From Marine Group I thaumarchaeote (GTDB taxonomy: Archaea; Thermoproteota; Nitrososphaeria; Nitrososphaerales; Nitrosopumilaceae), in NCBI GenBank assembly GCA_013390785.1, contig JACASW010000005.1, forward strand, positions 1 through 64,000: 64,000 nt of DNA, in the 5' to 3' direction. The notes under the pieces were generated by a model. That model was not told the DNA's origin. It did not search any database and saw only the letters and a program-made list of their open reading frames with translations. The stretch's first letter is position 1; every line of letters begins with the position of its first letter. A program made the translations under genes and the position numbers. Positions 1,676 through 29,308 of this stretch are shown here, piece after piece.

Positions 1676-1721
1676 ACGGAAATCTGGTATGAGGAACAAG
1701 TTTTAGACAGAATATGTAATT

Positions 1722-2795: not shown

Positions 2796-2798
2796 ATG

Positions 2799-4172: not shown

Positions 4173-4189
4173 TGTTAAAAAAAACTTTT

Positions 4190-4210
4190 TTCACGTATGT
4201 AAAGCTTATT
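4190..4210 (-). promoter_or_regulatory. Possible archaeal TATA-type promoter for sulfatase-fold copy 2
   Basis: Read on the minus strand, an A-A-G-C-T-T-T-A box lies at 4200-4207, about 27 bp before the GTG start at 4172. That is the spacing expected for a TATA box serving a near-leaderless archaeal transcript. It is inferred from position and composition only, in a very AT-rich background. Confidence 0.28.
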
Positions 4211-4265
4211 TTGTATTAATTAGTAGTTAAATCCAAATATTAGAAATTTCTGGGATGATTATTCT

Positions 4266-5984: not shown

Positions 5985-6039
5985 AATATGAACAAAACTA
6001 CGAAAAATTTAACTGTTTTAGATGAGCAAAAATTTCTAA

Positions 6040-6459: not shown

Positions 6460-6476
6460 TTTTAGCTATTTAGAAA

Positions 6477-6953
6477 ATGACACAACCATCATCACGGCAA
6501 AGGATGTGGCATCACTCAACTATCAACTGGATTCTTTGGCTAACATTACAAAACGGTTTAGGAAAATCTGTGGCTATATTATTAACTATTATTATTCAGT
6601 CTTTTCATAAAAATAAAAAAAAATACATTAGTCTTGAGACGTATAAAAAAGACGGTGGTTATGTTAGAACACCTGTTTGGTTTGTAATTGATAGTGATAT
6701 AATCTATGTAGTAACTCAGAAAACGACGGGTAAAGTTAAGAGACTTCAAAATAATAATTATGTTCGAATTACTTCATGTTCATTCAAGGGTGAACCAACG
6801 GAATGGACAAAAGGAAAAGTGAAAAATGTTACAGGTGAGAAAGCAGATAAAGCAATCATGCTTCGCAAGAAAAAATACGGCGTATCTGCTAGATTAATAG
6901 ATCTATTTAGCAAGGAAAACTCTATTGTCTTTTCCATTGAACCAGTTAATTAG
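6477..6953 (+). CDS. PPOX-class (F420/flavin-dependent split-barrel) protein with doubtful N-terminus
   Basis: From about residue 50, this 158-residue frame matches pyridoxamine-phosphate-oxidase-like split-barrel proteins: K-Y-I-S-L-E-T-Y-K-K-D-G, V-R-T-P-V-W-F-V-I-D, then T-G-K-V-K-R-L and a closing R-K-K-Y-G-V-S-A-R-L segment. The family binds FMN, F420 or heme; a small redox or cofactor role is all that can be said. The first 45 residues look unlike the family and are encoded by DNA visibly richer in GC than the surroundings. A GTG at 6571 is an alternative start giving about 127 residues. It does not fit an obvious glycan step and may simply be a passenger gene. Confidence 0.72.
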   Translation: MTQPSSRQRMWHHSTINWILWLTLQNGLGKSVAILLTIIIQSFHKNKKKYISLETYKKDGGYVRTPVWFVIDSDIIYVVTQKTTGKVKRLQNNNYVRITSCSFKGEPTEWTKGKVKNVTGEKADKAIMLRKKKYGVSARLIDLFSKENSIVFSIEPVN

Positions 6954-6960
6954 AATTATT

Positions 6961-8304: not shown

Positions 8305-8311
8305 TTTTTAT

Positions 8312-9391
8312 CTATGAAAATCTGTTAGCTGTTTTTACAATATAATCGATTTGAGATTCAGTCAAATTTGGATGAATAGGAATTGTAACAATTTCCTTGG
8401 CAATTTTTTCAGTTAGGGGAAGTTTAACAGATTTTTTATACAATGACATTTGATGAATAGGTTTGTAATGAGTTCCAGTCTCAATTCCTTTTTCTAGAAG
8501 TTTTTTTCTAAAAATTTTTCGATCCCTTACACAAATCCAGTATAGGTGATATGCACAAGTGCTCGTAAACGGAATTTTCTTGGAAGCATTTAGCTCTTTA
8601 TCATAAATTTTTGCGATGCTTTTTCTCTTATTATTCATTTTTTTGATTTTTTGAAGTTGTACTAAACCAATAGCAGCAGACAATTCATTCATATAAAAAT
8701 TCCAGCCTATTTTATCGACATCATAATCTGCGTACTTTCTATTTGAAATGCCACACCAACGTTTAGATTTTAAATCTTCGGTTATTTTTTTATAATTATG
8801 ACTATTAATTGAAATTAAGCCTCCTGTAGGCATTGCTAAATTCTTTACAGGATGAAAACTAAAACAAACAAAGTCTCCATGACTTCCAATCTTCTTACCA
8901 TTAAATTCTGAACCGCACGCGTGTGCTGCATCTTCAATGATCATAATGTTGGAATTTGATAATTTTTGGATTTTTTTAATATCTGCTGGCATTCCTCCAA
9001 AATGAACAGGTATTATACATCTGGTCTTCTTGGATATTTTTTTCTTTATTTCTTCAGGGTCGATGCATAATGTATGAGGATTAACATCCACAAAAACTGG
9101 TATTCCGCCATTATACATTATTGCATGTGCAGTACTCACGAACGATAGAGATGGTAAAATAACTTCTTTTCCTTTAATGTCACATAGCGCTGCAGCCAGA
9201 TGTAAGGCTGCAGTTCCACTATTCACGGAAACACAAGATTTTGAATTAATAAATTTCTTAAAATTTTTTTCAAATTCCTGTACCTGACCACCACCAGCTC
9301 CCGATGCCCAAAAACCACTCATTAATGTTTTAACTGCCTTTTTTACCTCACGCTCATCAATAGCAGGATCAAATAATTTTATTTTTTTCAC
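8312..9391 (-). CDS. DegT/DnrJ/EryC1/StrS-family sugar aminotransferase (PLP)
   Basis: A 359-residue fold-type I aminotransferase. It shows S-G-T-A-A-L-H-L (58-65) for phosphate binding, I-I-E-D-A-A-H-A (151-158) with the cofactor-pairing Asp, and F-S-F-H-P-V-K-N-L in which Lys183 is the Schiff-base lysine. It should transfer an amino group to a keto group on a nucleotide sugar, typically at C4 or C3. Together with the PseB-like dehydratase and PseH-like acetyltransferase nearby it could complete the amino-sugar steps to a nonulosonate precursor. It is the first gene of a two-gene minus-strand operon with the MBL-fold protein. A 211 bp divergent gap upstream is the longest non-coding stretch in the window. 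Confidence 0.9.
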   Translation of the reverse strand: MKKIKLFDPAIDEREVKKAVKTLMSGFWASGAGGGQVQEFEKNFKKFINSKSCVSVNSGTAALHLAAALCDIKGKEVILPSLSFVSTAHAIMYNGGIPVFVDVNPHTLCIDPEEIKKKISKKTRCIIPVHFGGMPADIKKIQKLSNSNIMIIEDAAHACGSEFNGKKIGSHGDFVCFSFHPVKNLAMPTGGLISINSHNYKKITEDLKSKRWCGISNRKYADYDVDKIGWNFYMNELSAAIGLVQLQKIKKMNNKRKSIAKIYDKELNASKKIPFTSTCAYHLYWICVRDRKIFRKKLLEKGIETGTHYKPIHQMSLYKKSVKLPLTEKIAKEIVTIPIHPNLTESQIDYIVKTANRFS

Positions 9392-9602
9392 TAATTGAAT
9401 ATCCTTCTCGACAACTATTTAGTATTCACTTATCATAGATTATAGACTGATAGAATTAGCTTTAGTAGTAATTATACTCTAGATTTAAATTTCAAAAGAA
9501 AGGGGATCAAATAGAAATTGAAAAAGTTCAATGTTTTAAATGGAAGGATTTTAGGAATAATTAAAATTCTAAAATAAATGCTGATGTTAATAATACTACA
9601 AA
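9392..9602. other. Divergent intergenic region (longest gap in the window)
   Basis: This 211 bp of AT-rich DNA lies between the divergently transcribed aminotransferase and sulfatase-fold copy 3, and should hold promoters for both. I see no convincing gene, inverted repeat or RNA structure. TATA-like stretches are present but cannot be singled out by eye. Confidence 0.4.
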
Positions 9603-10988
9603 ATGAAACCAAATATACTTTTTTTAATTGTCGATTCGCTTAGAGCAGATAAGGTGTCAGGCACTGAAAATAATTCTGTAACACCAAATTTAGATCATAT
9701 TAAAAAAAATGGAGTGTTTTTTGATCACGCAATAAGTTCATCGGATGGCACAATGTTAGCGTATGCTGGACTATTTTCAGGCAAACATCCATTTAAAACT
9801 GGTATGAGATCAGCAAAATTAACAAGGCTCTGTAATACAATAAGTTATTTTGAAGTACTCAAGAATTATGATTATAATCTCTATGGATGCTTACCAAACT
9901 TTGCTGAACCCTTTGAGATTATACCAGAGTTTGAAAATAATGATGAATCGTTTTTAGATCTTCTTCCAGATGCATTAGGTAATGCAGGAGAAATTACATT
10001 AAAAAAACTAGAAGGAGGTATGAAAGAACCATGGTGTTTTTTTGTGCATGTAACAAATATGCACTATCCAATCAAAAAACCTAAAGGCTTCGAAGATGAA
10101 AAGTTTGGTTCAAACAACTATGAAAAACAGATATCGGCAATAGATGAATGGATAGGAAAAATACTAAAAAAAATCGATCTAGCAAAAACACTATTTGTGA
10201 TTATAGGAGATCACGGCTCATATATTCAATCATTAAAAAACAAATCTTTAGAAATTGATTTTCAAGATAATGCGAATTTACAAACGAATTTTTTAAAAAT
10301 GCCAAGAAAAATGCCAAAATTTGTAGAACCTCTAAAACTAAAATTATTTTTAATGCGTGAACGTGCTAGTAAAAAACGAAAATTAAATAAAATAAAAAAA
10401 TTTGATTTAAAACCTCACGAAATAAGAGGATTGTTACATCAAAGAGGTAATACTGATCGATTTTTATTTGATGAAAAAATACGTGTGCCTCTATTTATGA
10501 TTGGCAGTAAAATAAATCAGGGTATGACAATCTCAAAGCAGGTTAGATTAATTGATGTTTTCCCAACAATCTGTGAAGTAGTTGGTATACCAAAATGGGA
10601 AGAAAAAGTAGATGGAATTAGTATCTATCCACTATTAGAAAATAAGAAAATGAATGACTTGACTGCATATATTGAAAGTACCCCTGGTGTTGTGATAGAA
10701 ACAAACAATGTGATTGGCATTCGTACAGATAAATACAAATATTTTAGAAATAGATATGATTCAGATTTAGATATACATCTTTTTGATTTAGTAAACGATC
10801 ATTTTGAAGATAATAATATTGCTGAAAAATCTAAAGACATTGTCCAAATGATGGAGAAGAATCTTAAGGAGATTATAGATGGATTCTCCCTTGAAGATGT
10901 TTGTTACGGTGATGATGAAATGAACAAGCAAGAAACTGAAGAAGTAGAGAATGTTAAAGAGATTTTTAAGGCGATGGGATACACATGA
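9603..10988 (+). CDS. Sulfatase-fold (alkaline phosphatase superfamily) protein, copy 3, Thr at the nucleophile position
   Basis: A 461-residue protein, paralogous to the copy at 2799-4172. It has Asp11 in I-V-D-S-L-R-A-D, T-P-N-L-D at 27-31, and an active-site segment ending G-L-F-S-G (56-60) that puts Thr50 at the nucleophile position. G-D-H-G comes after residue 200 and K-I-R-V-P-L-F-M later. The sulfatase Cys-x-Pro-x-Arg signature is absent. A strongly basic insert of about 80 residues follows the D-H-G motif in both this copy and copy 2. There is no signal peptide, so a cytoplasmic substrate, for example a nucleotide-linked or lipid-linked glycan, is likely. Whether it cleaves or transfers phosphate or sulfate cannot be told from sequence. 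Confidence 0.84.
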   Translation: MKPNILFLIVDSLRADKVSGTENNSVTPNLDHIKKNGVFFDHAISSSDGTMLAYAGLFSGKHPFKTGMRSAKLTRLCNTISYFEVLKNYDYNLYGCLPNFAEPFEIIPEFENNDESFLDLLPDALGNAGEITLKKLEGGMKEPWCFFVHVTNMHYPIKKPKGFEDEKFGSNNYEKQISAIDEWIGKILKKIDLAKTLFVIIGDHGSYIQSLKNKSLEIDFQDNANLQTNFLKMPRKMPKFVEPLKLKLFLMRERASKKRKLNKIKKFDLKPHEIRGLLHQRGNTDRFLFDEKIRVPLFMIGSKINQGMTISKQVRLIDVFPTICEVVGIPKWEEKVDGISIYPLLENKKMNDLTAYIESTPGVVIETNNVIGIRTDKYKYFRNRYDSDLDIHLFDLVNDHFEDNNIAEKSKDIVQMMEKNLKEIIDGFSLEDVCYGDDEMNKQETEEVENVKEIFKAMGYT

Positions 10989-11104
10989 CTGGTTTACTGA
11001 TACTCTATGATATTCTTTTTGTCACAGATTAATCATCAGTGAGTTTTAATAATTCTTGGCAGCGCGTCATCATATAATGATTTTGACTAGAAATTTTGAT
11101 AAAA

Positions 11105-12277
11105 ATGGATTGGAACTTAATAAAACAAATTAAAGGTCTGAAAAGTATTTCTCAAATTGGTGCTGCCACAGCTGGCGGAAATGCAATAGCGGCTATTTTT
11201 TGGATTTACATGGCCGATCTTATGGGTCAGGAAGATTATGGAGAATTAGGTTACATGCTTTCTATTGCAGGCATTGCATCAACTATTTCAATTCTTGGTG
11301 GTCAATGGACTATGTCAGTTTATACTGCAAAAGGTGTACGAATAGAATCTAGTTTATACTTCATATCAATAATTACCAGTACAGTTTCTGCGATTATTCT
11401 GTATTTCTTATTTGAAAATGTAGGAATGAGTGTGTATGTTATTAGTTTAGTTATCTTTAATTTGTTTACAGCTGAAATTCTAGGGAAAAAACGCTATAAA
11501 ACATATTCCAAAATATTTTTCGTACAAAAAATTATCTTAGTTACTCTTGCAATATTATTATACTATATTTTGGGCGCAGAGGGTGTTTTATTGGCATATG
11601 GTATCTCATATTTGGTATTTACATCTAGAATAATTAGTGCACTTAGAAATCATGAATTTAATTTTGGACTTCTAAGACAACGCTTTAAATTTTGGATGTT
11701 TAATTATATCATTCAGCTTAGCAATTCTGCACGTGCACAAATTGACATATTACTCATTGGACCACTTTTTGGTTTTGCGTTAGTTGGAAACTATTTTCTT
11801 GGTCTTCAGGTCTTGGGATTATTTTTGATCTTGCCGCTTATAATATTCAAATATACACTCCCCCAAGATTCAAGTGGTTCTTCAACAAAACAAATAAAGA
11901 TTATAACTATTGCAACGTCGATTGGTTTTGCATTACTAGGAATTTTTGTTGCCCCTGAAGTAATTCCACTTGTATTACCAGAGTATACCGATACAGTTGA
12001 ACTTATTCCTTTATTATCACTTGCAATTATTCCACGAACTGTCACTACAATGTTGATGTCTGGATTTCTAGGTAAAGAAAATAATATGCATCTTCTAGTA
12101 GGTAATTTAATCGCATTCTCTATTATTGTCTCAGGAATATTATATCTGCCTGAATATTTTGATATTGTAGGTCTGGCCATAGCATATGTCCTAAGCGTAA
12201 CGATTCAAACTATTTATCTTCTAATTGTTTACCTAAGAACTGCAAAAACACAAAATCTCAATACCAGCCGAGTGTAA
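11105..12277 (+). CDS. Wzx-type oligosaccharide flippase (polysaccharide transporter)
   Basis: A polytopic membrane protein of about 390 residues, with roughly 11-12 hydrophobic segments spread over its full length. An N-terminal amphipathic part leads into the first membrane helix, with a G-R/E-D-Y-G-E-L-G-Y pattern typical of the MATE/MOP-superfamily polysaccharide flippases (RfbX/Wzx). It would move lipid-linked oligosaccharide across the cytoplasmic membrane. I prefer the ATG at 11105; a TTG three codons upstream (11096) is possible. It sits between two sulfatase-fold genes and is the only clear Wzx-like gene here. Specificity cannot be inferred. Confidence 0.85.
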   Translation: MDWNLIKQIKGLKSISQIGAATAGGNAIAAIFWIYMADLMGQEDYGELGYMLSIAGIASTISILGGQWTMSVYTAKGVRIESSLYFISIITSTVSAIILYFLFENVGMSVYVISLVIFNLFTAEILGKKRYKTYSKIFFVQKIILVTLAILLYYILGAEGVLLAYGISYLVFTSRIISALRNHEFNFGLLRQRFKFWMFNYIIQLSNSARAQIDILLIGPLFGFALVGNYFLGLQVLGLFLILPLIIFKYTLPQDSSGSSTKQIKIITIATSIGFALLGIFVAPEVIPLVLPEYTDTVELIPLLSLAIIPRTVTTMLMSGFLGKENNMHLLVGNLIAFSIIVSGILYLPEYFDIVGLAIAYVLSVTIQTIYLLIVYLRTAKTQNLNTSRV

Positions 12278-12343
12278 ATTTTAAATTAATTATATAAAAT
12301 AGCAGTAATCTTGTTATACACTTAGTGTTTTGATTGAATATAA

Positions 12344-13471
12344 TTGAGTGTAAGTAAACCTAACGTAATTTTTGTTTTGTTGGATGGAGCAAGATGGGAT
12401 AGAGTAAATGTATCTAATGATTTTCAAGAAATTTGTAAAGAAGGAACTTTATTAAATAATGTAACTACGGCGATGCCATATACAATTGGATCAATAAATG
12501 TCACGTTCTCTGGATTATATGGCAAAGATAATGGTGTAGATGCATACTATAATGTGCTTAAATTAAAGGAAGAAATAAAAAATCTGCCTGTGATTTTTAA
12601 GAAAGAAGGATATTTTACCGCATGTGACTTATTGCATGAACGAATTTTAGCAAATAGGGGATTTGATGTTCATCAATCACATGATGAGTTTAGTGATGAT
12701 TTGAAACTTAAACATCCAAGTTTTATCAAACAGTGTTTAGAAAAAGCATCTGGAAAACCATTATTCCTGTTTCTTTATTTTTCTAAAATACATACAGTTA
12801 CAGTTTCTGATGTTTTAAAAAAATACGAATGGAATGACAAAAAATTTTATGAGAAAAAAGATGAGAACTTAAAACGATATGATGATACCTTCGTAGAAGT
12901 AGGAAAATATATGAAAACATTTCTTGATACACTAAAAAAATTACAAATTTATGATAATTCAATTATAATATTTTTTTCAGATCATGGTACAGGAATTGGA
13001 GAAAGATTTAGTGAGAGAAATTATGGTTCTTTCACTTATGAAGAAACCATAAGAACGTTCCATCTTTTTATTTCAAAAGATATCAAAAAAGGGCAGATTT
13101 CAGAAAAACTTAGAGCCACGATAGATATATTTCCTACAATTTTGGATCTTGCTAAAATTAATACTAATTTAGACCGTCCTGGAGATAGTTTTGCAGAATT
13201 TCTTCTTGGAAACAGTAATGAATTGAGAGATAAAGATTACACATTTTCGGAGACGGGAGCACTACATGGGTTACATCCCTCACCAGCAAAATCCAATGTA
13301 TTTTGTGTCAAAACCCCTACACAGAAATTAATGTATTTAGAATCGCCTAAGCAATGGAAGTTTTTTGATTTAATGGACGATCCGAATGAATTGGAGAATA
13401 AATATGGAACGAATCCAGAAATAGAAAAAAAATTGAAAACAATATTAAATGAATTTATCAATAATAGATGA
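12344..13471 (+). CDS. Sulfatase-fold (alkaline phosphatase superfamily) protein, copy 4, Thr at the nucleophile position
   Basis: A 375-residue protein starting at TTG (12344). It is the closest paralogue of the protein at 503-1675: both have an L-L-D/I-D-G start (Asp14 here), a P-Y-T active-site approach with Thr47 at the nucleophile position, a D-H-G-x-G-I-G-E motif and a Y-G-S-F-T-Y segment. The formylglycine signature is again absent. Like copy 1 it lacks the large basic insert seen in copies 2 and 3, so the four proteins form two subfamilies. There is no signal peptide. Its stop lies 19 bp from a convergent sulfotransferase gene, which keeps the sulfate/phosphate-ester theme. Confidence 0.84.
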   Translation: MSVSKPNVIFVLLDGARWDRVNVSNDFQEICKEGTLLNNVTTAMPYTIGSINVTFSGLYGKDNGVDAYYNVLKLKEEIKNLPVIFKKEGYFTACDLLHERILANRGFDVHQSHDEFSDDLKLKHPSFIKQCLEKASGKPLFLFLYFSKIHTVTVSDVLKKYEWNDKKFYEKKDENLKRYDDTFVEVGKYMKTFLDTLKKLQIYDNSIIIFFSDHGTGIGERFSERNYGSFTYEETIRTFHLFISKDIKKGQISEKLRATIDIFPTILDLAKINTNLDRPGDSFAEFLLGNSNELRDKDYTFSETGALHGLHPSPAKSNVFCVKTPTQKLMYLESPKQWKFFDLMDDPNELENKYGTNPEIEKKLKTILNEFINNR

Positions 13472-13490
13472 AGATATCAAATTTAATGAA

Positions 13491-14372
13491 TTAATTTTTA
13501 CACCAAAATGTTAAATCCCGGTTTAATAGTGAGCTCAATTTAATAATTTCTGGCTCTAGTTCATCTTGAAGTTTCTTTTTTAGCATAGAGTTTAATTTTT
13601 CTCTTTTAGATGGTGGATTGTTAATTTTTCTATACATTTTATCTGTAAATGGAATTTTTCTTAATACACCTCTTATACCAAATTTATTTTCCATCATGAT
13701 TTGATGAATTTGACGATTTCTATATTTTCTACTAGGATTTGTATTCAAGTATTCGATATTTGCATCAGCGCTCATTTCTAAAAATTCTAAAGTTTCTTTT
13801 AGTATTGTTGATTTATTTTTCATATAGTCATCAAATATGATAACTTTGACATTTTCTCTGCCGAAAGTATCAAAATATCTTTTTACTTGGGTGTAATATT
13901 TTACTACTTCACGATAAAGTAATCGAGGATCGTGTTTGTTAGGTGATTCTAAATTTTCTTTTTTCCGCATAGGTTCTGCAGATAACGCTTCTTCAAAATC
14001 AACAATGTGTTCAACTGTACTTCTATACAACAAAGAGGAATGAAGAGAATACATTGTATCTATTGGATTTCGTAAAATCATAATGATTTTAGCATTAGGT
14101 GAGAATCGTTTAATTCGTTCAGCAGTATATGGACAATACAGATATGCATTACATCTTTCACCTATTCTCCTTTCATTATTTACATCCGCAAATTGTTCTA
14201 AGTATTCATCATCATCCTTATAGTCACTAACCCATCCAAAGTGTCCTTTACCCTTTGGCCATTCTGGTTTTAGAAAATAGATGTCAGGATGTTGATCCAA
14301 TTCATATTGAAATGAAGTAGCACCTGAACGGGTTTGACCTACAATAAAGAAATTTGGTTTTTTGGTAGACAT
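13491..14372 (-). CDS. PAPS-dependent carbohydrate sulfotransferase, copy 1
   Basis: A 293-residue soluble sulfotransferase. The 5'-phosphosulfate-binding loop reads G-Q-T-R-S-G-A-T-S (12-20), and the 3'-phosphate-binding element R-N-P-I-D-T-M-Y-S lies at 101-109. Both are diagnostic for Sulfotransfer_1/3 families. It would move sulfate from PAPS to a sugar hydroxyl or amine. It is the last gene of a minus-strand run: cupin, large GT-B protein, SpsF-like protein, sulfotransferase, with short gaps of 11-27 bp. Linked ATP sulfurylase at 1722-2795 supports local sulfate activation. The basic C-terminal region could contact the acceptor glycan. Confidence 0.9.
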   Translation of the reverse strand: MSTKKPNFFIVGQTRSGATSFQYELDQHPDIYFLKPEWPKGKGHFGWVSDYKDDDEYLEQFADVNNERRIGERCNAYLYCPYTAERIKRFSPNAKIIMILRNPIDTMYSLHSSLLYRSTVEHIVDFEEALSAEPMRKKENLESPNKHDPRLLYREVVKYYTQVKRYFDTFGRENVKVIIFDDYMKNKSTILKETLEFLEMSADANIEYLNTNPSRKYRNRQIHQIMMENKFGIRGVLRKIPFTDKMYRKINNPPSKREKLNSMLKKKLQDELEPEIIKLSSLLNRDLTFWCKN

Positions 14373-17609: not shown

Positions 17610-18602
17610 ATGAAAATATTGGTAACTGGGGGACTAGGATTTATTGGAAGCAATTTCATCCTCAAATTACTACAGAAGGAAAATGGTTTTGAAATTATCA
17701 ATGTAGATGCCAAATTATTTGGTTCTAACCCACATAATTTAGACGAAATAAAAAATTCTGGCAGATATGAATTCGTGAGTGGAAACATAACTAACAAAAA
17801 TTTAATGAACGAATTGATATCAAAATGTGATTCAGTTGTTAATTTTGCAGCTGAAACATTTGTTGATAGAAGTATTAAAGACGCAAATCCATTTCTAGTG
17901 TCAAATATTAGAGGCGCATTTACATTAATGGATATTACAACAAAACAGAATAAGCGATTTGTTCAAGTGTCAACGGATGAAGTTTTTGGAAGTTTAGAAT
18001 CAACAACTGCAATGGAAGATTCAAAGTTTAATCCATCAAGCCCATACGCTGCAACAAAAGCTGCAGCAGAATTATTAGCAAACTCTTATTCTATTACTTA
18101 CGATTCAGATATAGTAATAACTAGATGTTCAAATAATTTTGGTCCAAGACAGTTTCCAGAAAAATTAATCCCCAAAATTATAATTTTAGCGGAGCAAAAT
18201 AAAAAAATTCCAATATATGGTAATGGTAAAAACATTAGAGATTGGATCTTCGTTGAAGATCATTGCGAAGCAGTTTTAGCATCTCTTTTAAAAGGAAAAT
18301 CTGGTCAATCCTATAATATTGCCGCAAATAATGAGATTGATAACATATCTATTGTGACAAAAATTTTAGAAATCATGAATAAATCACAAGATCTAATTGA
18401 GTTTGTTGAAGATAGGCCTGGGCATGATCAACGTTACAGTATGAGTTCAGCAAAAATTTCAAAAGAATTAGGTTGGAAAATGCAGACGGAATTTGAAGAT
18501 GGATTAGAAAAAACCATTTCATGGTATATGGAAAATCCGCAAATATGGAAAAATTTGGATTCTAACATCTTTGGATCAACTCCATGGAAGGTTTCTAATT
18601 AA
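17610..18602 (+). CDS. rfbB: dTDP-glucose 4,6-dehydratase
   Basis: A 330-residue extended SDR with G-G-L-G-F-I-G-S (7-14) for NAD, N-F-A-A-E-T-F-V-D-R-S (about 73-83), S-T-D-E-V-F-G-S (112-119) and Y-A-A-T-K (catalytic Tyr/Lys). N-N-F-G-P-R-Q-F-P-E-K and R-D-W-I-F-V-E-D-H follow. The set is specific for RmlB/RfbB, which makes dTDP-4-keto-6-deoxyglucose. The rmlA gene follows 26 bp later and a rhamnosyltransferase-like GT2 after that, forming one transcription unit. Without rmlC/rmlD partners in the canonical form, the final dTDP sugar could be an amino or deoxy sugar rather than rhamnose. Confidence 0.95.
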   Translation: MKILVTGGLGFIGSNFILKLLQKENGFEIINVDAKLFGSNPHNLDEIKNSGRYEFVSGNITNKNLMNELISKCDSVVNFAAETFVDRSIKDANPFLVSNIRGAFTLMDITTKQNKRFVQVSTDEVFGSLESTTAMEDSKFNPSSPYAATKAAAELLANSYSITYDSDIVITRCSNNFGPRQFPEKLIPKIIILAEQNKKIPIYGNGKNIRDWIFVEDHCEAVLASLLKGKSGQSYNIAANNEIDNISIVTKILEIMNKSQDLIEFVEDRPGHDQRYSMSSAKISKELGWKMQTEFEDGLEKTISWYMENPQIWKNLDSNIFGSTPWKVSN

Positions 18603-18628
18603 ATACTGATGTATAAACACTGAATGAA

Positions 18629-19663
18629 ATGAAAGGAATAATTTTACATGGTGGTCATGGTACTAGATTAAGACCATTAACTCATACTGGTCCAAAACAA
18701 CTTTTACCGATAGCAAACAAACCAATGTCACAATATTGTATTGAATCAATTTGTGACGCTGGCATTACAGATATTGCTATTATCATAGGTGGTTTAGGTG
18801 CGAACAAAGTCAGGGATTATTATGGAAATGGAGAAAACTTTGGTGTAAATATTACATATATTGAACAAGATGAACCTAGAGGAATTGCACATGCAATTAG
18901 ATTATGCAAAGAATTTGTCAATAATGAAAAATTTCTTGTTTTTCTAGGAGATAATATTATACAAAAGCCCATTACAAATTTTGTAGAGAATTTTAACAAA
19001 TCAGATTATGATGCCACGGTTTTGTTATGTGAAGTAGACAACCCAAGCAGATTTGGAATTGCAGATGTTGAAAATGAAAAGATTATAAAAATCACAGAAA
19101 AACCAAAAAAACCTACATCAAATCTAGCAGTGACTGGCATTTACTTGTTAACGCCACTAATTTTCGAAGTCATAGATAATTTGAAACCATCTTGGCGGAA
19201 TGAATTAGAGATAACAGATGCATTAGATAATTTATTAAAACAAAATGACAATATTGGTTACGAAACAATAACGGACTACTGGAAAGATACTGGGACTCCA
19301 GATGATATCTTAAATGCTAATAGACAGGTGTTAGAGCATATTTGTAGTAAAGCAGAAAATATACTGGTTGATGAATCAAGTCAAGACCAAAACTTTTTTT
19401 TGGATTTGCCATGTATAGTTGGTAAAAATTGTAAGATTGACGAATCTGCTCAGATTGGTCCTAATGCAAGCATAGGTGATAATACAATAATATCATCTGA
19501 TGTTGTTATAGAAAATTCCATAATAATGTCTGATTGTAAAATAGATGGAGGTTTAAACATCAAAGATAGTATAATTTCAGCAAACTGCCATCTACATGGT
19601 AATAATAAAGATAAAACTAAGAAAATTTTCTTGCTTGGAGAAGGGACAAAAATTACTTTGTAA
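18629..19663 (+). CDS. rfbA: Glucose-1-phosphate thymidylyltransferase, long form with C-terminal beta-helix
   Basis: A 344-residue nucleotidyltransferase making dTDP-glucose. The N-terminal signature reads G-G-H-G-T-R-L-R-P-L-T (8-18), with P-K-Q-L-L-P-I-A-N-K-P next and F-L-G-D-N-I for the metal site. The C-terminal about 90 residues have hexapeptide-like I-G repeats (left-handed beta helix), as in archaeal long-form RmlA proteins. It is coupled to rmlB upstream (26 bp) and supplies its substrate. An N-acetylglucosamine-1-phosphate or uridylyl activity is possible for archaeal long forms, but rmlB linkage favours the dTDP role. Confidence 0.9.
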   Translation: MKGIILHGGHGTRLRPLTHTGPKQLLPIANKPMSQYCIESICDAGITDIAIIIGGLGANKVRDYYGNGENFGVNITYIEQDEPRGIAHAIRLCKEFVNNEKFLVFLGDNIIQKPITNFVENFNKSDYDATVLLCEVDNPSRFGIADVENEKIIKITEKPKKPTSNLAVTGIYLLTPLIFEVIDNLKPSWRNELEITDALDNLLKQNDNIGYETITDYWKDTGTPDDILNANRQVLEHICSKAENILVDESSQDQNFFLDLPCIVGKNCKIDESAQIGPNASIGDNTIISSDVVIENSIIMSDCKIDGGLNIKDSIISANCHLHGNNKDKTKKIFLLGEGTKITL

Positions 19664-19715: not shown

Positions 19716-20759
19716 ATGAGTGAAAATCCGTTAGTTAGCGTAATAGTCTTGAACTATAATGCAGGAGAATTATTACTAAATTGTATAGAGTCTATCAAAA
19801 AATCGACATACAAAAACTTGGAGATTATTTTGGTTGATAATATTTCAACTGATAAAAGTCAGAAAATATGCAAAGAAAAATATCCAGACATAAAATTGAT
19901 TCAAAACGATGAAAATTTTGGATACTGCGAAGGAAATAATATTGGAATCAGAGAGGCGAAAGGAGATTATATTATAATTCTTAATCCTGATACAATTGTA
20001 GAATCTAATTGGATTGAAGAGTTAATTTCCGCGTATAATAAATTCGGAGAAGGACTTTATCAGCCAAAACATCTCTCTCTAAACAAAAAAACAGTTTACA
20101 TGAGTGCGGGAAACATGTTAAACATATTTGGATTTGGATATGCAAGAGAGAAAGGAAACAAGGATGAAAATCAATTTAATGAAATCGAAGAGATAGGTTA
20201 TGCCTCTGGAACTTGTCTGTTTACATCATCTGCTGTCTTAAAAAAAGTTGGTCTTTTTGATCCATTCATTTTCTTATATCATGATGATCTCGATTTGGGA
20301 TGGAGAGCATCACAATTGGGAATAAAATCTTACTATGTACCAACATCACTAATTTATCATGCAGAAAGTTACTCATTGAAATGGAATGCAGAAAAATTTT
20401 ACTGGCTTGAAAGAAATAGAAAATACTGTATTTTAACACATTATTCAAAACAAACATATTCAAAAATTTTTCCAACGCTGCTAGCAGTTGATTTTTTTGT
20501 TTGGATGTTTTATTTAACGAAGGGTTTCTTATGGTCTAAAATTAAAGCAGAACTTGATATAATAAAAAATAGAAAAGCAATTAAAACAAAATATGAGGAA
20601 TTAGAGAGTAAAAAAATTGTTTCTGATAAGGAACTGATTACAAAATTTTCAGATTCACTTCATGTTCCATCAAATGTAACAGGAAAAAACACTAATAGTA
20701 TTTTTAATTCAGTGATTCGGCGTCTAAGTAAAAGTGCAAAAAAATCTTTAGTTAACTAA
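19716..20759 (+). CDS. GT2-family glycosyltransferase, rhamnosyltransferase (WbbL)-like
   Basis: A 347-residue GT-A enzyme. The fold starts with S-V-I-V-L-N-Y-N-A-G (8-17), and L-V-D-N-I-S-T-D follows at about 39-46. F-G-Y-C-E-G-N-N-I-G, L-N-P-D-T and F-L-Y-H-D-D-L-D-L-G-W-R complete the donor/metal and catalytic-base elements of the WbbL-like subgroup. A hydrophobic stretch near 250 may associate with the membrane. It lies 52 bp after rfbA and probably uses the dTDP sugar made by that operon. It ends 1 bp before the convergent acpS gene. Confidence 0.9.
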   Translation: MSENPLVSVIVLNYNAGELLLNCIESIKKSTYKNLEIILVDNISTDKSQKICKEKYPDIKLIQNDENFGYCEGNNIGIREAKGDYIIILNPDTIVESNWIEELISAYNKFGEGLYQPKHLSLNKKTVYMSAGNMLNIFGFGYAREKGNKDENQFNEIEEIGYASGTCLFTSSAVLKKVGLFDPFIFLYHDDLDLGWRASQLGIKSYYVPTSLIYHAESYSLKWNAEKFYWLERNRKYCILTHYSKQTYSKIFPTLLAVDFFVWMFYLTKGFLWSKIKAELDIIKNRKAIKTKYEELESKKIVSDKELITKFSDSLHVPSNVTGKNTNSIFNSVIRRLSKSAKKSLVN

Positions 20760-20760
20760 T

Positions 20761-21135
20761 TCATTTAGTTTTAGCTATTCTAGAAGAAATTACAACTGCG
20801 ACAGCAAACTTTTTTTCATGACTAATAGAACACGAAAAAGTGTATTTTTTAGATTTTTCCCCTACTAATCTAACAATTGGACCATGTTTAGAATTTGAAG
20901 TTTGGATATCCAAGAATGATATTTTATCATGTATTGATTTTATCACTGATTCTTTAAGTGCAAATTTACCTGCAAAATGTTCGTAAGGAGATTTAAACTT
21001 TAAACAGTATTTTATCTCAGATTCTAAAAAAAATTTTTGGTAAAATTTTATATTTTGTTTAAAGATTTTTTTTCTGAATCTTTCTACGTCAATAATATCA
21101 ATACCAATTCCATCTTTTTCAATCAAAGTTTTCAT
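20761..21135 (-). CDS. acpS: Holo-acyl-carrier-protein synthase (phosphopantetheinyl transferase)
   Basis: A 124-residue AcpS-type enzyme that should add 4'-phosphopantetheine from CoA to the carrier protein encoded in the same operon. Diagnostic features are G-I-G-I-D-I-I-D-V-E-R-F (9-20) with the Mg-binding Asp, and F-A-G-K-F-A-L-K-E-S (54-63) with the catalytic Glu/Lys. A late S-C-S-I-S-H-E-K strand matches the family's S-x-S-H motif. It is the last gene of the fkbH-acp-VOC-acpS run and its ATG overlaps the VOC stop codon (TAATG). Its presence beside a dedicated ACP argues that the system is self-contained. Archaea generally lack AcpS. Confidence 0.92.
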   Translation of the reverse strand: MKTLIEKDGIGIDIIDVERFRKKIFKQNIKFYQKFFLESEIKYCLKFKSPYEHFAGKFALKESVIKSIHDKISFLDIQTSNSKHGPIVRLVGEKSKKYTFSCSISHEKKFAVAVVISSRIAKTK

Positions 21136-21548
21136 TAATTATTTTTTGGTCCTACTAGCTCAATCAAGTTACATTTTGTTTTTTTCATATTCAGCATAAG
21201 AAATGCAATTACCCTATCCTCAAAGCCTTTGACTGGCGCAACTACCAAACGTGCACCATTTTTTACCATTTTATCTATTTCTTGTTGAATATCATCAACT
21301 TCAAAACAGAGATGGTGAAATCCTCCACCCTCTTTAACGAAACTTGTGATTGGTGAGTCAGCATCAGTCGGTTCTATTAGTTCAATGTATACGCTATTAG
21401 TTTTCAAAAAACATATGTTGACTTTTTGCGAACCAACTAGAGTCGGTAAACTTGTAGATTCAAAACTTAAGAAGTTACTAATTTCTCCAAGTGATTCGTT
21501 TATGTTTTGGACAACAATGCCGATATGGTGTAATTTCAAAGCAAGCAC
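21135..21548 (-). CDS. VOC-superfamily protein, methylmalonyl-CoA epimerase/glyoxalase-like
   Basis: A 137-residue vicinal-oxygen-chelate protein. It starts L-H-H-I-G-I-V-V (6-13), with metal His in the first beta-alpha-beta-beta-beta unit. V-Y-I-E-L-I-E-P (about 53-60) carries the metal Glu, and G-G-G-F-H-H-L-C-F-E-V (74-84) the second His, with a closing L-I-E-L-V. This is the pattern of methylmalonyl-CoA epimerase, which removes a proton alpha to a thioester. In this operon an ACP- or CoA-linked acyl group could be its substrate. It sits between the acp and acpS genes. A generic ring-cleavage or glyoxalase function is less likely given the neighbours. Confidence 0.85.
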   Translation of the reverse strand: MLALKLHHIGIVVQNINESLGEISNFLSFESTSLPTLVGSQKVNICFLKTNSVYIELIEPTDADSPITSFVKEGGGFHHLCFEVDDIQQEIDKMVKNGARLVVAPVKGFEDRVIAFLMLNMKKTKCNLIELVGPKNN

Positions 21549-21573
21549 CAGTTTTTTATTCTATAAATTTTAT

Positions 21574-21801
21574 TCATTTATTTTTTCCCTCTAGTTTCTT
21601 TCTGAAATCACCAACAGTTTTTATTTCAAGTGTTTCTTCAAGTGAAAATTTTACGTCAAATTCTTTCTCAATTTCATCTAAAAGTACAAACATGTTAAAT
21701 GAATCCCAATCAGGTATTGAATTAGGTCCAGAGATATCAGAAATTTTTTCCATTGGTATATTCATAACTCTAGAAACAATTTCAAACAGTGTCTTTGTCA
21801 T
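21574..21801 (-). CDS. Acyl carrier protein
   Basis: A 75-residue four-helix carrier protein. The attachment site is Ser34 in D-W-D-S-F, preceded by an acidic helix I and followed by L-L-D-E-I-E-K-E-F (helix II), the recognition helix for partner enzymes. T-V-G-D-F closes the fold as in other PP-binding domains. Its ATG follows directly on the stop of the fkbH gene (TAAATG), showing tight translational coupling. Together with the FkbH-like enzyme it probably carries a glyceryl- or similar three-carbon acyl group. Finding a free ACP in an archaeal glycan locus is unusual and suggests acquisition from bacteria. Confidence 0.93.
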   Translation of the reverse strand: MTKTLFEIVSRVMNIPMEKISDISGPNSIPDWDSFNMFVLLDEIEKEFDVKFSLEETLEIKTVGDFRKKLEGKNK

Positions 21802-23556
21802 TTATGATATCACCAAGTGTTTAGGTTTTTTAAACTGGTTATTTGTATCAAAAATCCAAAAATCCCCTTCTTTTTTAAATCCAAAACCCGCAAAAAGATT
21901 TTCGGCAGGTTGATTTTTTTCTGTTTTAATGTATTCACCCCTAACTTGACTTATTCCATCCTTTCTAGCTTTTTCAATGATATGAGATAAAATACCATCT
22001 TCCACTCCTCTGCCTATCACTCTACAGCTCAGAAGAAAGGTGTCAATAGTCCACTGTTGTTCGTTATCTTTGTTGACGATATAAGCGGCTGTTATACCAT
22101 TATCGCCAAATTTATCTTTAATTTGCGCACATTCTACTATTTTTTTGCTATCCTGTGAGAATTTTCTAATATCTTCTTCTTGATATCTTCGAGTAGTTAG
22201 ATTAAACTGATTTGTTTTGAGTGTAAGTTGTGAGATTCTTGGAATTGTAAAATCATCTGCATTTTTTATGTTAACAGAGATATTCATCTGTTTAAGAAAG
22301 TTTTCTAAATTCCCTACTTGTATCTTAAATTCAGCTCTCTTTCTTTGTTCCAAATACATTGTGTTCCTTGCTTTGTCTTCATCAGTTAACTTTAGCATAT
22401 CAAAAATAGCAGTCATTGACTTGAGATTACTAGCATTGTTATGGCAATTATCAGCAGGCATCTGAATTGACATTACTTCAGGAAGATTGGATCTCACATA
22501 TTCTATGTTAACAGGATCATCATCAACAAATACCATACTGTCAAGTCCTATGTTTAATTCATCAGAAATTTCTTTCATATTTGCAACTTTATCATTCCAA
22601 TTAATCCTAACACATGCAAAATTATCTTCTTTGAGAATCATATTTGGATGTTCTTTGATTACCTGAATAGCTTCATCAAAGTTATTTTTACTATTGATTG
22701 CTAATAAAATGCCACGTTGATTTAATGCTAGAAGGTTATTTTGGAATTCAGCATAAGCTCTTCCAATAGGATCGTCGCTCAATTTGATTCCTTCAAATCC
22801 ATCTTCGCCAATTATGCCGCCCCAGAGCGTATTGTCCAGATCTAATACTATACATTTTTTAATTAATCCTAGTACAGCCGTTACGTATCCCATTAACTCC
22901 TGAGCTAAATATGGTATGTAATCAAGAGAAATTCTAATATCTCCATAGAAAAATTGTTTGTAATTAAAGACATTATGTTCTCCAAATTTACTGACAAAAG
23001 AATTTAGATCATAGATAAAAATTTCAGGCTCAAGTCTCAATCCAATTTTGATATTTTGGTTCAAACTTCTTACCATGTCATGTAAACCAAATTCTTCTCT
23101 GGTTTCATTTATTCCAATGGGAGAATATGATGGTATACTAAAATTTGATATAATTAGTTTAGAATTAGATTTCTTTACTAACGTCTTTGCTAAATTAATT
23201 ATTTCATCAGATTTGGTTTGTACAAATTGTTTTCTTTCTTCAGCAGAAAGAGAATAAGGGTTTAAGAAAAGTTCTCCAAAAACATTTCTACAGTCAATGA
23301 TCAAAAATGTTATGTCTGGAGAAAATTTGTATAGTTGGCTTTTTTCATCGATAATTTCCTGATTATACTGATTATATCCAGATACATAGGTTGTACATTG
23401 TATTTTTTTTTCATCACATTTGACCCTCATAGTTTCTTCTAACCCATTTAACGTAAAACCCCCTAGAATGGCTATTCGAATTTTCTTCGCGTAATTAGAA
23501 TTAGAGATAAGTTTTGACTTGTTGAGATATGAAGATAATTTTTCCTCACTAGGCAT
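21802..23556 (-). CDS. FkbH-like HAD-superfamily enzyme (glyceryl-ACP-forming type)
   Basis: A 584-residue protein with the FkbH domain order. An N-terminal SGNH-like region (about 25-220) comes first, then a HAD domain with V-L-D-L-D-N-T-L-W-G-G (Asp239 and Asp241 as catalytic pair) and F-V-D-D-D-P-V-N further on, and a C-terminal GNAT-like region (about 430-575). Characterised FkbH proteins take 1,3-bisphosphoglycerate, dephosphorylate it and load D-glycerate onto an ACP thiol. The ACP gene follows with no gap. In a glycan locus the likely use is to supply a hydroxyacyl group for an amino-sugar acyltransferase. The acyl group itself cannot be read from sequence. Confidence 0.9.
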   Translation of the reverse strand: MPSEEKLSSYLNKSKLISNSNYAKKIRIAILGGFTLNGLEETMRVKCDEKKIQCTTYVSGYNQYNQEIIDEKSQLYKFSPDITFLIIDCRNVFGELFLNPYSLSAEERKQFVQTKSDEIINLAKTLVKKSNSKLIISNFSIPSYSPIGINETREEFGLHDMVRSLNQNIKIGLRLEPEIFIYDLNSFVSKFGEHNVFNYKQFFYGDIRISLDYIPYLAQELMGYVTAVLGLIKKCIVLDLDNTLWGGIIGEDGFEGIKLSDDPIGRAYAEFQNNLLALNQRGILLAINSKNNFDEAIQVIKEHPNMILKEDNFACVRINWNDKVANMKEISDELNIGLDSMVFVDDDPVNIEYVRSNLPEVMSIQMPADNCHNNASNLKSMTAIFDMLKLTDEDKARNTMYLEQRKRAEFKIQVGNLENFLKQMNISVNIKNADDFTIPRISQLTLKTNQFNLTTRRYQEEDIRKFSQDSKKIVECAQIKDKFGDNGITAAYIVNKDNEQQWTIDTFLLSCRVIGRGVEDGILSHIIEKARKDGISQVRGEYIKTEKNQPAENLFAGFGFKKEGDFWIFDTNNQFKKPKHLVIS

Positions 23557-23659: not shown

Positions 23660-24202
23660 GTGAGTAAATATAATGATCTAATTGACGATGCAACTAAGCT
23701 AAATGAAAAAGAGCTTATGGAGTATCATGGTTACAGTGGTACTTTTGGCCGTTTTCAAATTAGAATAAAATACATCAATTCTTGGATATTACATAGGCTG
23801 GCCTTTTCTTCCACACATTCTGGTTTTGCCATTAGAATGCAAAAAGCTAGAGGTGTTAAAATTGGAAAAAATTGCCATTTCAATCCTTACGCGTTTATTG
23901 ATCTTATCTATCCTGAACTAGTACAAATTGAAGACAATGTTACACTAGGATCTTTCTCAATGATCTTTGCGCACAGCAATCCTACTGCAAATTTATTTTT
24001 AAAAAAAGGTAATTACCCCCGAAAGGTTGCTGAGGTTGTAATAAAATCTGGTGCTGTTATCAATCCAGGTAGTATCATTACATCTGGTGTAACAATTGGA
24101 AAAAATTCAATTGTATCACCTGGGAGTGTTGTTACTCAAAATGTACCTGATCATTGCGTTGTGGTGGGCAATCCTGCAAGAGTTGTAAGAAAAATAGAGT
24201 AA
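23660..24202 (+). CDS. Hexapeptide-repeat (left-handed beta-helix) acyltransferase
   Basis: A 180-residue protein starting at GTG (23660). The first about 65 residues are helical; then hexapeptide-type repeats run to the end (G-V-K-I-G-K-N, V-Q-I-E-D-N-V-T-L-G, V-I-K-S-G-A-V-I, V-T-I-G-K-N-S-I-V). The closing segment V-V-G-N-P-A-R-V-V matches the WbbJ/MaA/LacA O-acetyltransferases. It probably acetylates, or otherwise acylates, a sugar hydroxyl or amine. It is divergent from the FkbH gene (103 bp gap), so it is also a candidate acceptor enzyme for the ACP-bound acyl group. It is followed by a polysaccharide deacetylase 5 bp later. Confidence 0.86.
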   Translation: MSKYNDLIDDATKLNEKELMEYHGYSGTFGRFQIRIKYINSWILHRLAFSSTHSGFAIRMQKARGVKIGKNCHFNPYAFIDLIYPELVQIEDNVTLGSFSMIFAHSNPTANLFLKKGNYPRKVAEVVIKSGAVINPGSIITSGVTIGKNSIVSPGSVVTQNVPDHCVVVGNPARVVRKIE

Positions 24203-24207
24203 ACAAA

Positions 24208-25053
24208 TTGAATATTTTAGGAATTGATTTTGAGGATTGGTATCATCCGGAACTAATTAAAAAAAATCTCAAAAATGAAAAACATAATGCGACTGTCATA
24301 AATGGCATTGATAAAATATTGGAGTTATTAAGAAAGCATGAAACATTGGCAACATTTTTTGTTGTTGGTGAATTGTTAGAAATTAAACCAGATATTTTTG
24401 ATAAGATCGTTGAAAATGGTCATGAAATTGGATTTCATACAATGTATCATGATAGATTGGATTCACCTGGATACAAAGAAAAATTTCATAGTGAAATTAA
24501 AAAATTTGCAGAATTAACAAATCATAAATCACGTGGATTCAGAGCACCTACATTTTCACTCAACAATAATAGTTCATGGGCAATTGATATTTTAGCAGAA
24601 AATAATTACATGTATGATAGTAGTGTTGTTCCAGCTAAAACTAGTCTGTATGGTTTACCAAATGCACAAGAATCTCCATATAAAATTTCTAGTAAAAATA
24701 TTGAAAAAAATAATTCTGATGGAACGGTAATTGAGTTTCCATTATTAGTAACAAACTTCCTCGGGAAAAAAATCCCTGCAGCTGGTGGTTTTTACCTTAG
24801 ATCTTTACCAACAAAAATTACAAAAAATGCAATAAAAAATTATGAAAAACAAGGCATACCAGCTAGTTTCTATGTTCATTCGTGGGAACTAACTCCAGAA
24901 TACATGCCAAAATTAGATCTACCATTTAAGGATAATTTTGCTACTTTCCATAACATTAACGATACTTACAAAAGAATGAATGACATTTTAGAAGAATTTG
25001 AATTTACATCGTTTGCAAATTATATATCTCAAGGAGTGAATCTTTCTAATTAG
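24208..25053 (+). CDS. Polysaccharide deacetylase (NodB-homology, DUF3473-type)
   Basis: A deacetylase of about 281 residues. I choose the TTG at 24208, 5 bp after the upstream stop, because the family motif G-I-D-F-E-D-W-Y-H begins four residues later; a longer frame from 24154 would overlap the previous gene by 49 bp. NodB elements seen: the D-x-E-D metal/catalytic start, T-F-F-V-V-G-E, G-H-E-I-G-F-H-T-M-Y-H with the two metal His, R-G-F-R-A-P-T-F and a late Y-V-H-S-W-E-L. The family removes N-acetyl groups from lipid- or polymer-linked amino sugars in exopolysaccharide loci. No signal peptide is visible. Its end overlaps the convergent SDR gene by 8 bp. Confidence 0.88.
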   Translation: MNILGIDFEDWYHPELIKKNLKNEKHNATVINGIDKILELLRKHETLATFFVVGELLEIKPDIFDKIVENGHEIGFHTMYHDRLDSPGYKEKFHSEIKKFAELTNHKSRGFRAPTFSLNNNSSWAIDILAENNYMYDSSVVPAKTSLYGLPNAQESPYKISSKNIEKNNSDGTVIEFPLLVTNFLGKKIPAAGGFYLRSLPTKITKNAIKNYEKQGIPASFYVHSWELTPEYMPKLDLPFKDNFATFHNINDTYKRMNDILEEFEFTSFANYISQGVNLSN

Positions 25054-28135: not shown

Positions 28136-29308
28136 ATGAAAAAAAGAAAAAATTCTGACGCGTTTAACGATTTACACATTAGGGTCCCCTTTGTTCTTCC
28201 TGAGATAACAAATGAAGATAAAAGGGTAATTTTAGCCACACTTAATCAGAACTTACTCACCGATGGACCTAAACTGAAGGAATTTGAAAACAAATTTGCA
28301 AAATTTGCTGGTGCTAAATATGCAATAGGAGTATCAAATGCAACAGCTGCTTTACAACTTTCATTGAAAGCAATAGGAATTGGAAAAGGAGATCAAGTGA
28401 TTGTCCCTGATCTCACATTTGTAGCCTCAATAAATGCAATTTTATTCACTGGTGCTACACCAGTAATTGTAGATATAGATAAAGAAGATTACAATATATC
28501 TATAGATTCTATCAAGAAATCATTAACTAAAAAAACAAAAGCGATCATGCCAGTACATTTTGCTGGAAAATCTTGTAAAATGCACGAAATACAAACTATT
28601 GCTCGGAAAAATAATCTACGTATAATTGAAGATTGCGCACATGCAATTGGAGGTAAACTAAACAAGAAACATGTAGGTACATTTGGTGATGCTGGTTGTT
28701 TCAGTTTCTATCCAACAAAGAATCTGACTACATTTGAAGGTGGAATGGTGATAACAAATTCTAAAAAAATTTCAGAAACCATTAAAACATTAAGAAATCA
28801 CGGAATAACAAAATCCTATCAGGATAGATTTACAAAAGGTAAACCATGGGAATATGATGTAAGTATTCCAGGTTATAATTATAGATTAGATGAAATCAGG
28901 GCAGCATTAGGGATTAGTCAATTAAAAAGAATAACACAAAACAATTTAAAAAGAAAGAAAGCTGCACTTTATTATAACTCAAAATTAAAAAATATCAAAT
29001 CCATTATAACTCCTAAAATTTTAAAAGATGAAGATCATGCATGTCACCTCTATGTATTAAGATTCAAAAAGCAAGGAAAATTTTCAAGAGATGATTTATT
29101 TACAAAATTATTAAAAAATGGTATTAGAAGTTCAGTTCATTACAAACCATTACACACATTTACTGCATATAAGAGAAATGCAAAGATATTTGATAAATTA
29201 ATTAACAGTAAACAGATCTATAGGGAGATAATATCACTACCACTTTATCCACAAATTACGCGAAAACAACAAGATTTAGTTTTAAAAAATCTGGTGATAA
29301 AACATTGA
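28136..29308 (+). CDS. DegT/DnrJ/EryC1/StrS-family sugar aminotransferase (PLP)
   Basis: A 390-residue aminotransferase. S-N-A-T-A-A-L-Q-L (67-75), I-I-E-D-C-A-H-A (163-170) and F-S-F-Y-P-T-K-N-L-T-T (189-199) with Schiff-base Lys195 are visible, as is the E-G-G-M motif after it. It should aminate a keto nucleotide sugar. dTDP-4-keto-6-deoxyglucose (from rfbAB) and products of the Gfo/Idh oxidoreductase two genes downstream are candidate substrates. The next gene's TTG start overlaps its TGA stop by 4 bp, so the two proteins are translationally coupled. Confidence 0.92.
   Translation: MKKRKNSDAFNDLHIRVPFVLPEITNEDKRVILATLNQNLLTDGPKLKEFENKFAKFAGAKYAIGVSNATAALQLSLKAIGIGKGDQVIVPDLTFVASINAILFTGATPVIVDIDKEDYNISIDSIKKSLTKKTKAIMPVHFAGKSCKMHEIQTIARKNNLRIIEDCAHAIGGKLNKKHVGTFGDAGCFSFYPTKNLTTFEGGMVITNSKKISETIKTLRNHGITKSYQDRFTKGKPWEYDVSIPGYNYRLDEIRAALGISQLKRITQNNLKRKKAALYYNSKLKNIKSIITPKILKDEDHACHLYVLRFKKQGKFSRDDLFTKLLKNGIRSSVHYKPLHTFTAYKRNAKIFDKLINSKQIYREIISLPLYPQITRKQQDLVLKNLVIKH

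Follow-up and report, generated by a model that had tools for sequence, protein, structure and literature searches.

A candidate acyl carrier protein module with an exchangeable processing enzyme in archaeal glycan loci

Characterised FkbH enzymes derive glyceryl from 1,3-bisphosphoglycerate and load it onto an acyl carrier protein (ACP) (PMC7489565, PMC8949500), and glyceryl-ACP systems built from FkbH and ACP have been described for tetromadurin (Mad7/Mad8 and Mad14/Mad12), bafilomycin and vioprolide (PMC7489565, PMC3679948, PMC8949500). This chemistry is known mainly from the antibiotic pathways of bacteria and has scarcely been described in archaea. Archaeal lipids, for their part, are made without an acyl carrier protein system. 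Here we analyze a 64,000-nucleotide stretch of a Marine Group I thaumarchaeote (family Nitrosopumilaceae; contig JACASW010000005.1, positions 1 to 64,000), called the window below, in which four close-packed minus-strand genes at positions 20761-23556 encode an FkbH-type enzyme, a free ACP, a VOC protein and an AcpS-type phosphopantetheinyl transferase. We think it somewhat better than an even prospect that these genes are a plug-in acyl-ACP module decorating an archaeal surface glycan, with a neighboring hexapeptide acyltransferase putting the acyl group on an amino sugar. Our literature search, with subscription literature outside its reach, returned no description of such an archaeal cassette, of FkbH in archaea or of FkbH in polysaccharide loci generally.

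The four-gene core and its conservation

The core consists of the following genes:

21802..23556, minus strand: FkbH-type HAD enzyme with FkbH_N, HAD-IIIC and GNAT-like C-terminal regions (TIGR01686 319 bits, above the curated cut-off of 147 bits; PF21211 59 bits)
21574..21801, minus strand: free acyl carrier protein (PF00550, PP-binding, 23 bits; phosphopantetheine Ser34 in W-D-S-F)
21135..21548 (probable start TTG 21539), minus strand: VOC metalloprotein, putative hydroxyacyl-ACP epimerase (PF13669 77 bits; TIGR03081 71 bits, below the cut-off of 115)
20761..21135, minus strand: AcpS-type 4'-phosphopantetheinyl transferase (TIGR00516 67 bits, above the cut-off of 60; PF01648 54 bits)

Coordinates and profile matches confirm the order and the spacings of 0 bp (FkbH-ACP), 25 bp (ACP-VOC) and -1 bp (VOC-AcpS) given in an earlier, sequence-only reading of this DNA. 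Because homologues of the VOC protein open with MKLHHIG, its start is probably TTG 21539 and not GTG 21548, and the ACP-VOC gap would therefore be nearer 34 bp. Among 11 archaeal FkbH homologues the HAD residues D239, D241, S289 and D345/D346 are kept (the DxDxT and DD motifs comprise D239, D241, D345 and D346), and Cys511 is invariant in the C-terminal region, which appears GNAT-like when judged by eye. By sequence and catalytic residues the window protein belongs to the FkbH family, with the corresponding activity predicted. The modifiable Ser34 that the sequence-only reading had found in D-S-F is invariant in 16/16 cassette ACPs, as are W32, L40, E45 and F48. This ACP is the sole PP-binding match and AcpS the single ACPS in the window's genome (0.95 Mb, 82% complete), and AcpS is predicted to be dedicated to the cassette ACP. 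Gene content thus supports the earlier proposal of a predicted self-sufficient FkbH/ACP/AcpS acyl-ACP unit within an archaeal glycan locus.

Conservation was surveyed in 200 Nitrosopumilaceae genomes, with fragments and decayed copies included in the FkbH count. FkbH was present in 32 genomes and AcpS in every one of them, an association (both, FkbH alone, AcpS alone, neither: 32/0/9/159) with a Fisher p of ~3e-29, kinship between genomes being ignored; in the same order, the counts were 30/2/7/161 for FkbH with the hexapeptide acyltransferase and 35/6/2/157 for AcpS with the acyltransferase. Across the phylum an AcpS-type enzyme was found in only 40 of 398 sampled genomes. The conserved co-occurrence in related archaea expected by the sequence-only reading was therefore observed, and we rejected a contaminant or assembly artefact because roughly 30 related genomes carry the cassette, some of them assembled as a single contig (for example G019 and L042). 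Nitrosotenuis chungbukensis MY2 (L088) is among the strains in which it occurs. In a 29-row tree, the Nitrosopumilaceae FkbH proteins other than that of L054 form one clade (SH-aLRT 99), and the window FkbH clusters with four VOC-type proteins of the same genus (SH-aLRT 95). At L073, L074 and L075 (genomes G181, G097 and G160) an AcpS-type domain lies in a longer frame of 240-270 aa, with no cassette partners detected nearby.

Gene partners were counted around 30 FkbH loci using a 30% self-score threshold, which gave the acyltransferase in 28, AcpS in 26, a polysaccharide deacetylase in 25 and a flanking family 2 glycosyltransferase in 22. The unit exceeds four genes: the four first recognized do belong to it, but it also includes the divergently transcribed hexapeptide acyltransferase and, usually, the deacetylase, both of which had been missed as members. 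Among the acceptor enzymes put forward earlier, the hexapeptide acyltransferase stands as the likely user of the acyl group, whereas synteny led us to reject the FemAB-like and GNAT genes, found in 0/30 and 2/30 of the related loci, respectively.

The slot between ACP and AcpS

In most Nitrosopumilaceae a MaoC-type dehydratase takes the place of VOC between ACP and AcpS, with an SDR reductase added in the slot at L055 and L059; L054 is a rearranged locus that has MaoC and SDR. A survey of 115 FkbH loci, taken from archaea, bacteria and viral contigs, found 43 with MaoC, 23 with VOC and not one with both; SDR is found alongside MaoC in 20 of 43, alongside VOC in 0 of 23 and with neither in 2. 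MaoC and SDR are fused into one protein at seven bacterial loci, and the MaoC motif G-D-x-x-P-x-H is kept in nearly all intact Nitrosopumilaceae copies, with several bacterial copies unmatched. Another exchange occurs in six genomes that have AcpS and no FkbH, in which an AMP-binding ligase and, mostly, a different ACP are present; AcpS is kept throughout, the acyltransferase is found in 5/6, and the ligase (with the ACP, where present) lies between AcpS and the acyltransferase in 5/6.

When both trees are built from the same 20 loci, the VOC/MaoC label needs one change on the ACP tree versus three on the FkbH tree. This pattern fits joint movement of the ACP and its processing enzyme, but with such short ACP sequences it is no more than suggestive. 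The residue three positions after the ACP serine is hydrophobic in VOC types of Nitrosopumilaceae (including the L041 ACP beside its VOC) and Gly or Ser in MaoC types, but this split fails in bacteria and other archaea, making it a weak marker. We also considered whether the hexapeptide protein tracks the VOC/MaoC type better than the deacetylase does; nearest-neighbor counts were 26/27 versus 15/25, and the idea was rejected as unsupported by the trees (3 versus 4 changes, 20 loci).

The model of the window VOC protein (pLDDT 91) is closest in fold to 3hdp and 2qh0 (TM-score about 0.86-0.9) and to methylmalonyl-CoA epimerases. Four metal-ligand positions are kept as H-E-H-E (H8, E56, H79 and E130), which places the protein among the VOC metalloenzymes with metal binding predicted. 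In an alignment of 21 VOC proteins, 20 of them FkbH-linked and one from L072, residues E43 and S115 of the S. coelicolor epimerase are missing from all 21, and Glu stands at the position of its Gln60. The E43 and S115 positions are occupied by I45 and F in the window protein and by V/I/L/A and F/I/Y in the remaining linked proteins. As read from the alignment, the human epimerase also seems to have no Glu where the S. coelicolor enzyme has E43, which by itself is therefore not a universal feature. The Glu of the human PEHGV motif was considered as the epimerase base and rejected: in S. coelicolor the residue is E43, which lies five positions further along. With E43 and S115 absent and TIGR03081 at 71 versus 115 bits, we rejected a true methylmalonyl-CoA epimerase, and the sequence-only likening of VOC to that enzyme fails when taken literally.

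Compact, independent sets of FkbH, ACP, acyltransferase and deacetylase are also found in another family of the phylum (L080-L082), in Bathyarchaeum (L098) and in Asgard archaea (L095, L096, L099, L101 and L102). VOC is linked in most of these loci and AcpS in all but L082, which is on a short contig and has AcpS elsewhere in its genome. An STT3/AglB-type gene (PF02516) adjoins the L080 cassette, and a similar long gene occupies the same place at L081, assigned by position and length without a Pfam scan. The sequence-only reading had mentioned lactoyl-type decoration; the exchange of VOC, MaoC and AMP-ligase, the compact cassettes of Asgard archaea and Bathyarchaeia, and a likely lactoyl branch were not part of it. 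Bacterial relatives couple FkbH-ACP to MBOAT or WcbI-type acyltransferases.

Several further gene sets were observed. On a Sinorhizobium meliloti plasmid (L179:815-5849), FkbH and ACP are accompanied by a protein annotated as MBOAT family. The FkbH of the viral contigs L171, L172 and L173 is short (334-340 aa) and occurs together with ACP, MaoC and SDR, which may amount to a lactyl-ACP module carried by phages. Beside the FkbH module at L041:9146-13894 and L057:6282-10723 lie a DltB-like MBOAT gene and one for a 313-316 aa protein that is DltD-like by position only, sets that look like archaeal Dlt-style acylation; L041 also has a second ACP. At L072:6536-9480 (G112), genes for a VOC protein, a DltA-like AMP-ligase and a formyltransferase are grouped ~14 to 17 kb from FkbH on the same contig and are possibly another acyl-sugar module.

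Flanking genes and the proposed acyl transfer

The flanking genes of the window that bear on acyl transfer and sugar supply are:

23660..24202, plus strand: hexapeptide-repeat acyltransferase, putative acyl-ACP to sugar transfer (PF00132 50 bits; H105 invariant)
24154..25053, plus strand: XrtA-type polysaccharide deacetylase with DUF3473, putative amine exposure on the acceptor sugar (PF11959 108 bits, PF01522 61 bits; TIGR03006 193 bits, below cut-off)
19716..20759, plus strand: family 2 glycosyltransferase, AcpS neighbor in most relatives (22/30 FkbH loci, 5/6 AMP-ligase loci)
17610..19663, plus strand: dTDP-glucose 4,6-dehydratase and glucose-1-phosphate thymidylyltransferase, dTDP-keto sugar supply as context (TIGR01181 409 bits and TIGR01208 380 bits, both above cut-off; 20/30 and 22/30 FkbH loci)
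28136..29308, plus strand: DegT/PseC-like sugar aminotransferase, possible amino-sugar source as context (TIGR03588 386 bits, just under the cut-off of 423; 12/30 loci)

An FkbM methyltransferase gene is also present in the window locus and in 10/30 relatives, and an FdtA-like ketoisomerase gene in 14/30 FkbH loci. Four sulfatase-fold proteins, one ATP sulfurylase and two sulfotransferases are encoded at window positions 503-14372 and 50542-51423, and together these suggest that the surface glycan proposed as the target of the cassette is also sulfated.

From the observed gene content, conservation, linkage, exchange pattern and catalytic residues we infer a pathway, with its chemical steps, their order, the acyl group and the acceptor, as follows. 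AcpS would convert apo-ACP to the holo form, as its family does, and FkbH would dephosphorylate 1,3-bisphosphoglycerate and load D-glyceryl onto the ACP, a reaction established for characterised FkbH enzymes; PGK, which can supply 1,3-bisphosphoglycerate, is encoded in the window's genome. VOC would then abstract the alpha-proton of the hydroxyacyl thioester with the help of its metal and epimerise the product to L-glyceryl-ACP. The divergent hexapeptide acyltransferase, given its tight linkage, would transfer the group to a sugar amino or hydroxyl, and the acceptor amine would be provided by the deacetylase next to it or by the locus's dTDP/UDP-amino-sugar genes (RmlA/RmlB/DegT); the linkage may be amide or ester, and either acceptor source is compatible with the data. 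In MaoC relatives, with or without SDR, glyceryl-ACP could be converted to pyruvyl-ACP and on to lactyl-ACP, a route proposed because of the MaoC-SDR pairing and fusions, and in other relatives the whole FkbH module would be exchanged for an AMP-ligase and another ACP. On this reading, the acyl group would be glyceroyl in the window and perhaps lactoyl in the MaoC relatives. The FkbH-DH-KR route to the lactate starter of bryostatin offers a parallel, for which our literature search gave no confirming paper.

Rival readings were weighed as well. VOC could be the equivalent of MaoC and eliminate water from glyceryl-ACP, so that the window product would be pyruvyl or lactyl and not epimerised glyceryl; the two proteins share a slot, never occur together and belong to folds that both work on the thioester alpha-proton. 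We consider this unlikely, since SDR accompanies MaoC in 20/43 loci and VOC in 0/23, as would fit a keto product that needs reduction from MaoC but not from VOC, and dehydratase activity is not known for VOC proteins. Epimerisation of glyceryl is preferred over dehydration for VOC because no SDR accompanies it. Slightly less probable still, FkbH and ACP could make glyceryl while the hexapeptide protein acetylates the same glycan as an ordinary acetyl-CoA acetyltransferase and the ACP-bound group is moved by a FemAB-like, GNAT or glycosyltransferase protein. The nearest solved folds of the hexapeptide protein are indeed acetyl-CoA enzymes, and the window holds one FemAB-like and one GNAT gene, but the hexapeptide protein follows AcpS through the 200 genomes and stays when AMP-ligase and ACP replace FkbH, and the other two genes are nearly absent from related loci. 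Least probable, and in our view quite improbable, is that the acyl-ACP serves to make a lipid or a small metabolite for secretion, its place within a glycan locus being a matter of position only. Characterised FkbH enzymes do supply polyketides and non-ribosomal peptides (PMC7489565, PMC8949500), but the constant partners here are the hexapeptide acyltransferase, the deacetylase and the glycosyltransferase, two Bathyarchaeia-type loci (L080 and L081) adjoin an STT3/AglB-type gene, and bacterial FkbH-ACP pairs occur with MBOAT or WcbI-type acyltransferases. In agreement with the sequence-only reading, no clear ketosynthase was found in the window's genome, where ketosynthase-domain matches are weak and partial only; with PGK present, direct use of the acyl-ACP is therefore more likely.

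Several points weigh against glycan decoration by the cassette. The hexapeptide acyltransferase model (pLDDT 86) is near maltose and galactoside O-acetyltransferases in fold, with AntD lower down the list; these nearest solved folds use acetyl-CoA, and the enzyme may be CoA-dependent. The cassette is dispensable, as most genomes lack it and it has decayed at L059 and L063 of genomes G129 and G081, where FkbH is split by frameshifts or stops and AcpS is cut short, and L051 and L052 keep FkbH and the acyltransferase with the deacetylase missing. The activities of the archaeal cassette proteins, including the putative epimerase chemistry of VOC on hydroxyacyl-ACP, are predictions. Glycoproteomics of Nitrosopumilus piranensis, a strain whose cassette status is unchecked, saw no N-glycosylation; in Nitrososphaera viennensis the same study found a novel hexasaccharide (PMC12153357).

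A broader form of the plug-in module proposal can be offered more tentatively, and we hold it as possible rather than probable. Archaeal glycan loci from Nitrosopumilaceae to Bathyarchaeia and Asgard archaea would share an exchangeable acyl-ACP slot that sets the surface hydroxy acid: FkbH-VOC would give one glyceroyl stereoisomer, FkbH-MaoC(-SDR) pyruvoyl or lactoyl, and AMP-ligase-ACP other acids, with carriers served by AcpS, one type of acyltransferase, and VOC as a new kind of alpha-hydroxyacyl-ACP epimerase. If true, a cassette equipped with a carrier, an activating enzyme, a loader and an acyltransferase of its own would show a purpose for a carrier protein in archaeal cells, and would make concrete predictions, testable by mass spectrometry, for undescribed surface sugars in Asgard archaea and in the abundant ammonia oxidisers of the sea. 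A bacterial gene grouping that is widespread and, in the literature searched, undescribed would be explained as well: FkbH-ACP with MaoC-SDR or VOC next to acyltransferases for glycans.

Comparison with known systems

The archaeal cassette shares with the polyketide and non-ribosomal peptide FkbH-ACP systems the FkbH family, the catalytic HAD residues and a free-standing ACP, and PGK, which handles the same precursor, is encoded in the window's genome. It differs in having no clear ketosynthase, oxidases or methoxymalonyl-ACP/tetronate tailoring set, and instead has a private AcpS, VOC and sugar-modifying enzymes. Its VOC protein has the same fold and conserved metal-ligand positions as methylmalonyl-CoA epimerase and glyoxalase I of the VOC superfamily. 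AntD, the N-acyltransferase of the anthrose pathway, which presumably adds a hydroxyacyl group, is likewise a hexapeptide acyltransferase and acts on a dTDP-4-amino-4,6-dideoxy sugar. It is CoA-dependent and a distant fold match only (PDB 3vbi, TM-score about 0.44), not an orthologue of the cassette acyltransferase.

In Dlt D-alanylation (DltA ligase, DltC carrier, DltB MBOAT), as is proposed for the cassette, a carrier-activated acyl group is passed to a glycan acyltransferase. The cassette is without DltA, DltB and DltD, having no AMP-ligase or MBOAT; FkbH would be the acyl source and a soluble hexapeptide protein the transferase. By analogy, the cassette would work like Dlt, yet it is not a Dlt system.

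The nearest biological parallel is flagellin glycosylation in Campylobacter jejuni, where the neighbors of the fkbH-domain gene cj1302 include genes for a FabH-like protein and ACPs. The C. jejuni flagellar glycosylation locus holds cj1302 in strains whose pseudaminic acid may bear a dimethylglyceric acid group; synthesis of that group is tied to cj1295 and not to cj1302 (PMC7099621). The C. jejuni system is bacterial and acts on pseudaminic acid, and an STT3/AglB-type neighbor of the archaeal FkbH is found only at L080 and L081. What the two have in common is an FkbH-domain gene in a glycan locus, which in C. jejuni serves protein glycosylation with a flagellin sugar that bears O-methylated glyceric acid.

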